A stretch of 34,251 bases of DNA, from assembly GCA_009380075.1 (NCBI GenBank), contig WHSO01000003.1:68724-102974 (forward strand), in the 5' to 3' direction. Each line of letters opens with the position of its first letter. Within the stretch, counting starts at the first letter, position 1. Below are positions 27,154-33,596 of this stretch, one piece after another. The translations under genes and the position numbers were made by a program. This DNA is from Alphaproteobacteria bacterium (GTDB lineage: Bacteria; Pseudomonadota; Alphaproteobacteria; SMXQ01). Under the pieces are notes generated by a model that was not told the origin of the DNA, ran no database searches, and was given only the letters and a program-made list of their open reading frames with translations.

Positions 27154-27267
27154 TTTGCTGAATCCACGGCGTTGCGTCCAAGCGCGTGGCAAACGACAGG
27201 AGGAAATCCAGCCTCTCAAACGGTTTGATTTGTTATGCCTCTCTGCAGCGGAAGCTATTTTGAATCG

Positions 27268-28974
27268 TCACTGAATGGGTTCGCCTAAGAACCAGACATC
27301 GCAAAATTTATAGCCAAGATGTCGAATCACTGATGCTGTAAGTCTATGTGGCGCTATTATAACGAACAGCATTAAAAGAAATTTGTCTTCTAATAACGTA
27401 GTAGGAACACTGGGACAGGAAATTACACGCGCATCAGTCTTTAGGGCTTCCCACTCTTTTGTCGGCGAAACTTGAACTGAGACCACTTTTCCTCTCTCGC
27501 TGTTGAGCAAGCAATATTGCCACGGCTCTTCCGGTTGGAATTCCATTAACATGAGGCGTGAGAACTCTGGCCAATTGATCTTGCAAGAGGATTTTAGATT
27601 AGTCCGAACCAATAAATGCAGCAGGCCTTCAGCGACATAGGAAGAATTCGTGAAAGTTTCGCGTTCTAATGCATCCGGCATGCTGGGAAGAAAAGGTCTG
27701 TACACATGTCTTATGACGTCTTCGTAGTCATAGTACGGCGATGGAAAGCCATTGGATCCTTCGCTGGTCGCGTGACTGAGCAGTTGCCTTAGCAGATGGT
27801 CAATCGCACGCTCGGGCCAAAGCGTTGCGTCTTTTTTCCGCCAAAGCCAAAAGTGAACCAATATTTGAGGCAGAGCACCTTCGCCCCAAAATTCGATGCC
27901 CGTCATTGGAACGGGCAAGACGCTTTCAAGGACAGCTTCTGCGTCAAAACTTTCGTTAGAGGGCCAACCTTCCTCCTCGCACCACATCCTCAGTAACGAT
28001 AATAAACTTGCCACCAGAAGCGTTCGACCGGGAAGAAGTAAGAAATCCGTTATCGCCGGTGGTTCAACCTGAGCCATACGAAAAAGCGTAATTTGATCAG
28101 AGGGCGTATGTTTTCGAATTTTATCAATTCGATCATTAATCTCCCTGAGTAATCGAAGCAGAGAAGACAGAATGGCGTCACGAGCTATTTTTATCGCGGG
28201 CTCGCCATTCTTGATGCTAAACCGATATCGACTGCAAGCTGCATGAACATATACTGCGTACAACGTCCAAGCCGATACGATGGCAAAGTGGTTGTCACGC
28301 TTTTCGAAGTTCATCAAAGTCAGTGTAGTCATCACAGCCGCTGCAAATACTCGCTGCCTAAGTATATTCGCCGAGCGAATTGACTTTGTTTCGCCGAGGC
28401 CCAGAAGGCCCATTAGGATGGTATGAAGGTTCTTAAGAGGGAAAGGGTCCGAGCCGTCTTTGACAAGTATTTCAAGGAGCGCATTTAAGGGAGATATTTC
28501 GATTGGCCAAACCGAACTGCCATATTGAATGAGCCAGTCCAAAAACTCGCCGCGTGCGATAATTCTTACGCCTTGGTCGGCGTTGTACCCATGTCTCAGC
28601 AAGCCGCGATTGAAATCATCAATGGCTCTTTGGACCTCTTCCTCCACCATTCCATTCGTTACGAGAAAGCTTCGGTGAGGACGATTCGGAATGCCGGGGA
28701 ATACTATTGGTTGGGTAACTAGTTCACGAAGTTGCTCGGCAATTTCACGAAATTGCGTCAGTGTTAGCCGTGATCCCGGATTGCCTTTGAGCTGAAATGC
28801 ACAGGGTATTCCGTCTTTGTCCAGAGCAATGATGTCTTTGCCAAATTCAATAGACATATGCCGAGTGCTGTGAAGTACACGATACCCCTGAGCTGCAAGA
28901 AGCTGACAAAAGGCGGCTTGGTAAGCGCGTTCGTTGACGCTATCCAACCAGTTTTCGAGCAGCCTCTCTAGCAC
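27268..28974 (-). CDS. PD-(D/E)XK (Mrr-like) nuclease-domain protein with long helical C-terminal region
   Basis: The protein is 568 residues. Residues 1-65 look like an Mrr-type restriction-endonuclease fold: Glu15 in NERAYQAAFCQLLAAQGY, Asp47 in FGKDIIALDKDG, and Gln61-x-Lys63 in AFQLKG. This is the E...D...QxK variant seen in type IV restriction and repair nucleases. About 400 further residues are mostly helical and not recognised; they contain Trp-rich segments (EFWGEGALPQILVHFWLWRKKD). The start is GTG 28974, supported by GGGAGG six bases upstream. It overlaps the preceding gene by 35 bp. A defence or DNA-processing role is inferred; no methylase or helicase is adjacent. Confidence 0.72.
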   Translation of the reverse strand: MLERLLENWLDSVNERAYQAAFCQLLAAQGYRVLHSTRHMSIEFGKDIIALDKDGIPCAFQLKGNPGSRLTLTQFREIAEQLRELVTQPIVFPGIPNRPHRSFLVTNGMVEEEVQRAIDDFNRGLLRHGYNADQGVRIIARGEFLDWLIQYGSSVWPIEISPLNALLEILVKDGSDPFPLKNLHTILMGLLGLGETKSIRSANILRQRVFAAAVMTTLTLMNFEKRDNHFAIVSAWTLYAVYVHAACSRYRFSIKNGEPAIKIARDAILSSLLRLLREINDRIDKIRKHTPSDQITLFRMAQVEPPAITDFLLLPGRTLLVASLLSLLRMWCEEEGWPSNESFDAEAVLESVLPVPMTGIEFWGEGALPQILVHFWLWRKKDATLWPERAIDHLLRQLLSHATSEGSNGFPSPYYDYEDVIRHVYRPFLPSMPDALERETFTNSSYVAEGLLHLLVRTNLKSSCKINWPEFSRLMLMEFQPEEPWQYCLLNSERGKVVSVQVSPTKEWEALKTDARVISCPSVPTTLLEDKFLLMLFVIIAPHRLTASVIRHLGYKFCDVWFLGEPIQ

Positions 28975-29536
28975 GCCATTCCTCCCTCTTTAGTTCAATG
29001 AGATTCTTGTGTTTTTTCTGCAGTTCTCTATTCGTCTCGAGCTCGTGAATGAGTTTTTCAGCGTTCTGCCTTGCAGCAGGAGGAATCACGACAGCCAAAT
29101 TCTTAATTTTTCCGGCTTCATCAAATTCAATCGACATCTTTTCGAGCGTCTCCAAAAAGAGCTTTGCGTTTAGTGGTTGTCCTCGTCCGTCAACGACATT
29201 GCCGCTTTGTTCCGCTGCCTTACCTACAACTTCGAAGAAGTGTTTTGATTTTTTTGAAGCTATGTCCTCTGCAATTTTGTCGATAATTGGGAGGACGTCT
29301 TTCAATGTAAGATTGATCACTTGCTGAAGTTTAATTTCTGTTTCGCCTGAAATTTCTACAATTTCTGTGATATCTTCTTTTCCGTCTGCACGAATTATCG
29401 AATTCTCTTGCCCTTCATGGATGGAATGGGTTGCCACTTCGCCGACAATGCCTTCACGGCTTCTGACTCTAGTTTGGAGAAAGCGATTAACAAAATGCAG
29501 CATTTCCCGCTTGAGTTGTGGGCTATCAGGCAACAT
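28940..29536 (-). CDS. Hypothetical protein coupled to the PD-(D/E)XK nuclease gene
   Basis: The protein is 198 residues and not recognised. It is acidic and basic in alternating patches. A helical N-terminus (LKREMLHFVNRFLQTRVRSREG) is followed by a short Ile/Glu-rich stretch (DITEIVEISGETEIKLQQVI), a central region with NVVDGRGQPLNAKLFLE, and a highly charged helical C-terminus from about 145, possibly coiled coil. There is no signal peptide or membrane segment. It shares the AT-rich codon use of the downstream nuclease gene and overlaps it by 35 bp, so they are probably made together. It could be a sensor, adaptor or regulatory partner of the nuclease; that is inference. The ATG at 29536 has only a weak ribosome-binding site. 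Confidence 0.7.
   Translation of the reverse strand: MLPDSPQLKREMLHFVNRFLQTRVRSREGIVGEVATHSIHEGQENSIIRADGKEDITEIVEISGETEIKLQQVINLTLKDVLPIIDKIAEDIASKKSKHFFEVVGKAAEQSGNVVDGRGQPLNAKLFLETLEKMSIEFDEAGKIKNLAVVIPPAARQNAEKLIHELETNRELQKKHKNLIELKREEWRAREAARKLVG
28981..28986 (-). promoter_or_regulatory. Strong ribosome-binding site deciding the nuclease GTG start
   Basis: On the minus strand GGGAGG lies six bases before GTG 28974, inside the end of the upstream gene. It supports both the unusual GTG start and separate, efficient initiation at the nuclease despite the 35-bp overlap. Confidence 0.75.
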
Positions 29537-29557
29537 TTAAAGTGCTTTCTGGAATAG

Positions 29558-29577
29558 AGTGATCACTAGTGATCACT
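29558..29577. promoter_or_regulatory. Perfect 20-bp palindrome made of two tandem AGTGATCACT units
   Basis: AGTGATCACT is itself palindromic and is repeated head to tail at 29558-29567 and 29568-29577, so the whole 20 bp is also a perfect palindrome. It lies 21 bases upstream of the 198-residue gene start and 33 bases past the DUF4412 stop. It could be a double operator for a cassette regulator or an RNA hairpin (8-bp stem, CTAG loop). A run of T is absent, so simple terminator function is unlikely. Confidence 0.6.
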
Positions 29578-29610
29578 GATGTCTCTTTTCAGTGTTAGTT
29601 ATCCTATGCG

Positions 29611-31492: not shown

Positions 31493-31598
31493 CAGCGATC
31501 CGCCGCCTCGGGGGTGCCGTCCGTCGGGGCGGCGTGCGGCGGAGGGCTTGCACCCCCGGGGTCGAGGGGGGATGATGGGCCGACAAAGGAGCCGCTTC

Positions 31599-32480
31599 AT
31601 GTTCGTTGCCGAAGAGACCGCCGCCGGAATCACCGTCACGCCCCTGTCGCCCGCCTGCGGGGCCGAGATTTCGGGCGTCGACCTGGCCACCGACCTCGCC
31701 CCCGCCGTGGTCGAGGCGATCCGGGCGGCGTGGCAGAAGTACCTCGTCCTCGTCATCCGTGGACAGGACCTTTCGCTCGACGACCAGTTGCGCTTTGCCG
31801 CCCGTTTCGGCCCGCTGGGCGAGCGCAAGAAGGCCCCCGAAGGGCTGCGGGAGCGCACCGAAGGCATCTACCAGACCGAGAAACACACGCTCCTGGTCAG
31901 CAATATGAAGGTCGACGGCAAGCCCATCGGCGCCTTCGGCGAGGGCGACATGTGGTTCCACATCGACTCCGGCTACACCGAAAGGCCCTACAAATACACC
32001 TTCCTGTACGGCATGGAGCTGCCGTCAACGGGAGGAAACACACTGTTTTCGAACATGTACATGGCCTATGACGAGCTTCCACAGCCGTTGAAGGACACGA
32101 TCAAGGGCCGCAAGGCGCTGCATATCCACGAATACAAGCGCACCGAAAAGGTCGATACCTCGGGCGATATCTCCCATTCGCCGCACTGGTTCCACCCCGT
32201 CGCCGTCATCCATCCCGAGACCGGGCGTCGTGCACTGTTCGTCGACCGCCTGATGACCGCGCGCATCGAGGGCCTGGAGCCCGCGGAAAGCGAGCGCGTC
32301 CTCAACCAGCTCTGGGACCATGCCGAGAACCCGCGCTTCGTCTACGAGCACGTCTGGAAGCTCAAGGACCTGGTGATGTGGGATAATCGATGCCTGACCC
32401 ACGGGCGAACGTGGTTCCCGCCGTCCGAGAACCGCCTGCTGCGTCGCTGCACCGTCGAGGGCGGGCCGCTCGACGGCTGA
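31599..32480 (+). CDS. TauD/TfdA family Fe(II)/2-oxoglutarate-dependent dioxygenase
   Basis: The protein is 293 residues. It has the family N-terminus CGAEISGVDLATDL, the HxD iron motif His121-Asp123 in WFHIDSGY, the distal iron ligand His268 in CLTHGRTWF, and a 2-oxoglutarate-binding arginine near 281-283 (NRLLRR). These enzymes hydroxylate or cleave substrates such as taurine, alkyl sulfates or aryloxy acids. The ATG at 31599 follows AAGGAG at ideal spacing; upstream in-frame ATGs lack it. A second, distant family member follows after 36 bp and a Rieske oxygenase further on, suggesting a catabolic cluster. The substrate is unknown. Confidence 0.87.
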   Translation: MFVAEETAAGITVTPLSPACGAEISGVDLATDLAPAVVEAIRAAWQKYLVLVIRGQDLSLDDQLRFAARFGPLGERKKAPEGLRERTEGIYQTEKHTLLVSNMKVDGKPIGAFGEGDMWFHIDSGYTERPYKYTFLYGMELPSTGGNTLFSNMYMAYDELPQPLKDTIKGRKALHIHEYKRTEKVDTSGDISHSPHWFHPVAVIHPETGRRALFVDRLMTARIEGLEPAESERVLNQLWDHAENPRFVYEHVWKLKDLVMWDNRCLTHGRTWFPPSENRLLRRCTVEGGPLDG

Positions 32481-32516
32481 TTGCCGCCAATCTTTCCGAA
32501 CCGGAGGGGCTTCCGT

Positions 32517-33596
32517 ATGTCCGCTGCGTCGCCGTCCATCGCCGTGAATGAGTGGGCGCCGTCGCCGCAAAGGCACGTGCCGGCGGTGCTGATGCGGCCC
32601 ATCGACGATCCCGCCGCGTGGACGGCGAAGGACTTCGCCGGGCGCGATATCTGGCTCTACCGCCTGTTGGGGGACGAGATCGACGAGGTCCTTGCTGCCG
32701 TCGCCGCGGTGGAGAGGGCGGGGCTGTCCCTCATGGACGTTGCCCGCGAGAATTTCCCGCTGCCGCGCTTCGGCGAAACCCTGCACACCATCCGCGACGA
32801 GGTCATGCTCGGCCGCGGCTTCGCCGTGCTGCGCGGAATGCCGGTAGAGGGGCGCAAGCGCCTGCAGGTGGCGACGGCGTTCTGGGGCATGGGCGCCTGG
32901 CTTGGCCGCCAAATCAGCCAGAACCGGCGCGGCCATCTGCTGGGCCACGTCAAGGACACCGGCGGCGACTACAGCGTCGGGCGCGGCTACAACACCAGCG
33001 CGGCGCTCGCCTTCCACTCCGACCGCTGCGACATGCTGTCGTTGTGCTGCCTGCAACCGGCGAGGTCCGGCGGGGCGCACCGCATCGCCAGCTCGGTCAC
33101 CATCTACAACACGCTGCTGGCGCGCCGCCCGGACCTGGTCCGGGAACTGACCTGGCCGTTCTACCGCTCGCGCCGGGGCGAAATCCCCGACGGCGAGACC
33201 ACGCCGTGGTTTCGCCTGCCGGTGTTCTCCGTCGCCGACGGCTATTTCGCGGCGCGGCCGCCCGGTTCCGTGGTGATGAAGGCCCAGGGCATGCCCGGCG
33301 TGCCGGAGCTTACGCCCTTGCAGCGCGAGGCGCTCGATGCCTTCGCTGCACTCGCCCGCGAAAACGCGCTCGACATCGACCTGGAGCCGGGGGACGTGTC
33401 GTACCTGCAGAACTTCGTTACCCTGCACGCGCGCACCAGCTACGAGGACCACCCCGAGCCCGAGCGCAAGCGCCATCTGCTGCGCCTGTGGCTCGATACC
33501 GGCGGGGTGCGGCCGCTGGCCGACGATATCCGGCGCGAGGTCACGGGCGTCGCGGTGCCGCCGGAGATGCTGCAGACGCCGCTCGACGCCGCCTAG
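32517..33596 (+). CDS. TauD/TfdA-like Fe(II)/2-oxoglutarate dioxygenase, second copy
   Basis: The protein is 359 residues and only distantly similar to the preceding dioxygenase. The iron ligands are visible as His167-Asp169 in AFHSDRCD and His304 in TLHARTSY, with Arg323 in HLLRLWLD as the likely 2-oxoglutarate anchor. The N-terminal 130 residues (FAVLRGMPV, WGMGAWLG) form a longer lid region than in TauD. The ATG at 32517 has GGAGGGG upstream. The start is 36 bp after the stop of the upstream dioxygenase, so the two are probably co-transcribed, with sequential or paralogous oxidations of one substrate class. A hairpin follows one base past the stop. Confidence 0.82.
   Translation: MSAASPSIAVNEWAPSPQRHVPAVLMRPIDDPAAWTAKDFAGRDIWLYRLLGDEIDEVLAAVAAVERAGLSLMDVARENFPLPRFGETLHTIRDEVMLGRGFAVLRGMPVEGRKRLQVATAFWGMGAWLGRQISQNRRGHLLGHVKDTGGDYSVGRGYNTSAALAFHSDRCDMLSLCCLQPARSGGAHRIASSVTIYNTLLARRPDLVRELTWPFYRSRRGEIPDGETTPWFRLPVFSVADGYFAARPPGSVVMKAQGMPGVPELTPLQREALDAFAALARENALDIDLEPGDVSYLQNFVTLHARTSYEDHPEPERKRHLLRLWLDTGGVRPLADDIRREVTGVAVPPEMLQTPLDAA

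Follow-up and report, generated by a model that had tools for sequence, protein, structure and literature searches.

The window, by which we mean the whole stretch of 34,251 nucleotides that was analysed, carries on its minus strand a cassette of two genes whose coding frames overlap by 35 bp: upstream the gene of a protein of 198 aa, which we call the partner, and downstream that of a nuclease of 568 aa (Table 1). Both ORFs lie where a preliminary description of this DNA had placed them, and the bounds it gave to the cassette, 27220-29605, are its intergenic limits. The foreign base composition remarked on at the time is evident, since the cassette has a G+C content of 0.464, whereas all the other stretches of 2.27 kb in the window average 0.667 (sd 0.022) and never fall below 0.617, and since the GC3 of the cassette is 0.41-0.47 against 0.77-0.91 in the neighbouring genes. 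The cassette is also missing from the 10 other genomes examined of the order to which the source belongs, as befits the horizontal acquisition proposed for it, and the genes that flank it show no joint conservation within the order. The strong internal ribosome-binding site that had been described is aaagagggaggaatggc, a Shine-Dalgarno sequence that lies among the final codons of the partner gene, ahead of the nuclease's GTG.

Between 22 and 41 bp upstream of the partner start lies a perfect palindrome of 20 bp, AGTGATCACTAGTGATCACT, made of a palindromic decamer repeated twice in tandem, which is a possible operator. None was seen upstream of the partner genes at the other loci, and we rejected the palindrome as a conserved operator of the family because it is present in the window member only. 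Elsewhere in the window (31548-33596), two adjacent plus-strand genes have the look, by eye, of TauD-type dioxygenases and may form a tandem pair, unrelated to the cassette.

Table 1. Features of the two-gene cassette, in positions of the window.
Feature	Position	Strand	Remarks
Partner gene, 198 aa	28940..29536	-	ATG start; N-terminal helix, beta-hairpin segment, long helices (model)
OloB-family nuclease gene, 568 aa	27268..28974	-	GTG start; predicted PD-(D/E)XK (Mrr-type) domain ~1-155, predicted alpha-solenoid/TPR-like part ~157-560
Overlap of the two coding frames, 35 bp	28940..28974	-	Phase as in 19 other loci
Nuclease Shine-Dalgarno (agagggagg), within the partner's conserved C-terminal K-R-E-E codons	28978..28991	-	Limits by eye
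Catalytic E15 codon	28930-28932	-	Position calculated from ORF start
Catalytic D47 codon	28834..28836	-	Position calculated from ORF start
Catalytic K63 codon	28786-28788	-	Position calculated from ORF start
20-bp palindrome AGTGATCACTAGTGATCACT	29558..29577	.	Position from partner start, +/- a base or two

The nuclease is related to OloB over its full length

No Pfam or NCBIfam model matches the window nuclease, and Mrr_cat (PF04471) matches 9 of 14 members of its family (best 8.8e-6). An AlphaFold2 model built with 14 sequences (pLDDT 77.5, pTM 0.83) predicts a PD-(D/E)XK domain at residues 1-155, the fold that had been suspected at the N-terminus. This part of the model aligns with FokI (Z 10.5, 140 residues, 3.5 A), AF1548 (Z 10.4) and MspJI (Z 9.4), and also with AspBHI, LlaBIII, Shedu and LmuA; the top Foldseek match for the nuclease model is EndoMS, with a probability of 1.00 but an E-value of 0.15. 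The pattern E15, D47, Q61-x-K63 from which the fold had been suspected is present: all 20 nucleases of the new type and all 14 OloB proteins compared have E15, D47 and K63, and the position of Q61 holds a Q in 19 of the 20 members of the new type. The enzyme presumably cuts DNA. Its C-terminal part (~157-560) is modelled as a helical, TPR-like solenoid, which is a common arrangement and one from which function cannot be read. Sequence searches of the PDB with the profiles of the nuclease, the partner and OloB gave no credible match.

Olokun, made of OloA and OloB, is an anti-phage system. The PADLOC profile of OloB (PDLC03926) matches the window nuclease weakly, over residues 12-123 (E 2.4e-4), and the nucleases of its relatives down to 9.9e-11, in matches that span most of the protein. 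Aligned with OloB by hhalign, the profile of the new nucleases reached a probability of 99.2% and an E-value of 1.9e-19 over 490 columns. The length of this alignment indicates that the whole nuclease is related to OloB, beyond the nuclease domain alone, and the long helical region that had first been called unrecognised can in fact be recognised as the remainder of a protein of the OloB type. Judged by these profile comparisons, the nuclease is a full-length but remote homologue of OloB. A tree of 34 nucleases (unrooted, with long branches) divides 19 proteins of the new type from 15 OloB proteins by one branch with support of 100/100, and this single split suggests that the type of partner changes only once. 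Residues H39, E43, K46 and Q81 are typical of the new type and mostly or wholly absent from OloB.

Some observations concern Olokun itself. Three loci (L012, L040, L041), in part on Klebsiella plasmids, form a divergent clade in which OloA measures just 300 aa and OloB branches deeply (1.96 changes per column); this clade is a candidate subtype of Olokun. On a Tolypothrix plasmid (L042, 2308-3501), fragments of an ISAs1-type transposase are annotated between the upstream gene and OloB. An OloB match at L013 was left out, there being no OloB-like ORF among the ORFs checked.

The partner belongs to no known family

The partner has a length of 190-213 aa in nearly all loci. The preliminary description had called the 198-aa protein unrecognised, and so it stays: neither it nor its relatives have a significant match in Pfam, NCBIfam or PADLOC. 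Its structure was modelled with middling confidence (pLDDT 75, pTM 0.47), and searches of the fold with Foldseek and a second structural aligner gave no match above Z 3.4. The PADLOC profile of OloA finds no match in the window partner up to an E-value of 10, nor in 15 of its relatives up to 1; with true OloA proteins the profile reaches 1e-14 to 1e-74. When the first ~80 residues of the partner were aligned by hhalign with the last 80 of OloA, the score was 27.1, and none of 500 column shuffles exceeded 21.4; the probability, 12% with the full partner and 30% with the N-terminal half alone, is below the usual level for homology. At the level of sequence profiles, these first residues may be related to the C-terminal domain of OloA.

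This last comparison raises the possibility that the pair is an Olokun with a divergent and shortened OloA, one that keeps only the C-terminal domain, has gained a new tail and still works as OloA. Such a reading would agree with the homology of the nucleases at full length, with a score above that of every shuffle and with the existence of OloA variants of 300 aa in the divergent clade. We nevertheless consider it rather doubtful, because the probability of the match between partner and OloA stays under the usual homology level, because the partner has neither a PADLOC OloA match nor the N-terminal part of OloA, of ~500 residues, and because the new nucleases occupy their own fully supported branch, with the four residues typical of it.

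The pair is kept together in at least seven phyla

We found 20 pairs in at least seven phyla, 18 at loci gathered via the nuclease and 2 at Bacteroidota loci gathered via the partner. The partner is directly upstream in all 18 of the former, both of the latter also carry the nuclease, and of the 385 genomes of the class that were searched, the three that carry the partner are also the three that carry the nuclease, so that the two were never apart among the genomes examined. The gene order is kept in 20 of 20 loci, with a frame overlap of 32-53 bp that is always 2 mod 3; the nuclease ORF of one locus (L029) is shortened near a contig end. A pairing kept at every one of the 20 loci is far beyond chance, and the homologues bear out the original view of a pair.

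By record name, the hosts are Alpha- and Gammaproteobacteria, Chloroflexota, Thermodesulfobacteriota, Bacteroidota, Balneolota, Acidobacteriota (Bryobacterales) and Actinomycetota. One record (L030) names Bacillus as its source but is flagged as unverified, and its protein clusters with those of Actinomycetota. A weak nuclease match in genome G081 (L004) was discarded, as it is located in a GTPase resembling mnmE. Chromosomal copies predominate, with a single relative on a plasmid, and no relatives were found in the phages or viral contigs searched. The G+C content of the pair is below that of its surroundings in 19 of the 20 loci. The pair was acquired horizontally in the source genome and has probably spread horizontally.

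Genomic neighbourhood

Homologues were to be looked for near known defence genes, and by raw count genes of this kind adjoin the pair or lie within ~3 kb of it at six loci. The pair adjoins the gene of the Hachiman helicase HamB at L006, a type III R-M system and the gene of a TIR protein at L026, and the gene of a GmrSD_N/HEC-05 protein at L028. It lies near the gene of a KAP NTPase, PifA/QatA-like, at L031, and is flanked by genes of HEPN/nucleotidyltransferase (HEPN/MNT) and DUF4365 proteins at L017. At L030 it lies near genes of SLFN AlbA_2 and caspase proteins and near a TrwC relaxase. The window copy and several relatives stand alone amid housekeeping genes.

Other neighbours, all identified by eye, recur or point to mobile elements. 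Genes of the uvr type directly adjoin both systems: uvrB at L018, and uvrA-like genes at L020 of Sphingomonas arenae, at L021 and, on the side of Olokun proper, at L007. Two Chloroflexota pairs (L025, L028) each adjoin an apparent B12-type ribonucleotide reductase gene. Both kinds of site are possible insertion hotspots. In a Desulforapulum MAG (L023, upstream of 7418), the pair adjoins genes resembling those of the tail and capsid of a Mu-like prophage, which suggests that a prophage carries it there.

Discussion

We read the cassette, with a probability of roughly 70%, as a two-gene anti-phage module that has spread horizontally and that consists of an OloB-type nuclease effector and a dedicated small partner. 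A pair that recurs unsplit in at least seven phyla, and often near defence genes, is probably an undescribed anti-virus system. The preliminary description had proposed a candidate new defence module. This stands for the partner, which is of no known family, but not for the nuclease, which is recognisable as OloB-type and makes of the module a sister of Olokun rather than something wholly new. Whether the pair is a distinct, undescribed system present in at least seven phyla, in which a small protein of new fold, a sensor or an inhibitor, controls an OloB-type nuclease and is locked to it by translation, and in which the trigger is unlike that of Olokun, seems to us an even bet, and our confidence in any particular trigger is low.

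How such a module might protect against phages can be outlined. The Mrr-type PD-(D/E)XK domain of the OloB-type effector, mounted on a scaffold of helical repeats, would cut DNA during phage infection. The 198-aa partner most likely binds the nuclease, and would hold it inactive, or direct it, until infection; it would thereby fill the place that the much larger, HEAT-like OloA has in Olokun. Because the frames overlap and the ribosome-binding site of the nuclease lies in the last codons of the partner gene, translation of the nuclease would be tied to that of the partner, and the nuclease would be made only where its partner has just been translated. Such coupling would fit a complex of fixed proportions or an effector for which restraint is needed first.

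The small size of the upstream partner, the tight overlap and the invariable pairing would also suit a toxin-antitoxin-like or self-restraining pair that serves mainly to stabilise its own DNA, with the partner as antitoxin and perhaps, given the palindrome shortly upstream of its gene in the window, as autorepressor. We find this unlikely, since the palindrome is unconserved in the relatives, most copies are chromosomal, and a large solenoid effector with OloB kinship suggests a regulated effector of defence. No more credit, and no less, is due to a modification-dependent (type IV, Mrr-like) restriction pair, in which the nuclease would cut modified or foreign DNA and the partner would read DNA. 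The domain profile searches found a DNA-reading domain in neither protein, and the fold searches yielded no clear match for the partner; the Mrr_cat domain does favour such a pair, as does the structural likeness to MspJI and AspBHI, both modification-dependent, but fold matches of this kind reflect the shared PD-(D/E)XK core only. Finally, it is very improbable that a +1 ribosomal frameshift in the overlap, whose phase is the same in 20 of 20 loci, yields a fusion of partner and nuclease, because the nuclease start codon follows a stretch rich in purines that often clearly resembles a Shine-Dalgarno sequence, because the nuclease frame usually extends no more than 1-14 codons upstream of that start, and because inspection by eye revealed no slippery sequence common to the loci.

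If the cassette is the anti-phage module that we favour, a sister of Olokun that combines the same effector with a far smaller partner would define the minimal parts of the family and show which part is possibly exchangeable. This reading would account for the isolated pairs of an Mrr-like nuclease plus a hypothetical protein in many phyla, and the profiles produced by our analysis would find them. For Olokun, whose mechanism recent papers describe as unknown or as not thoroughly characterised (PMC12926258, PMC12592470), the pair would be a smaller version suited to study.

Comparison with known systems

The nuclease has its N-terminal catalytic domain in common with the Mrr_cat nucleases, as the matches of the nine family members indicate, and differs from them in that this N-terminal domain is followed by a helical solenoid and accompanied by a separate partner protein. 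With Shedu SduA, Lamassu LmuA and Can2/Card1 it shares the PD-(D/E)XK core (structural Z 7-8), but these systems differ in their sensor domains and the likeness is of the core fold only. The resemblance to Olokun goes further in several respects: both are two-gene operons with the partner first, then the nuclease, in overlapping frames, and their nucleases are homologous end to end, of similar size and with the same catalytic E, D and K. The differences are four. First, an OloA (PDLC03925) of ~570 aa is directly upstream of OloB, whereas the new partner has 198 aa and no OloA match. Second, the overlap is ~4 bp in annotated Olokun loci and 32-53 bp in the new pairs. Third, the motif of the new nucleases is E-[FL]-G-K-D...Q-x-K, that of OloB [QE]-x-G-V-D...x-x-K. 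Fourth, the new nucleases fall outside the OloB proteins in the tree, on their own branch (100/100). In one alphaproteobacterial genome (G620), a single contig bears both a true Olokun (L009) and, ~50 kb away, the new pair (L017), which indicates that the two are not mutually exclusive. Because the partner has no OloA match and the nuclease lies outside the OloB branch, we class the pair apart from Olokun, and it probably works in a way similar to it.
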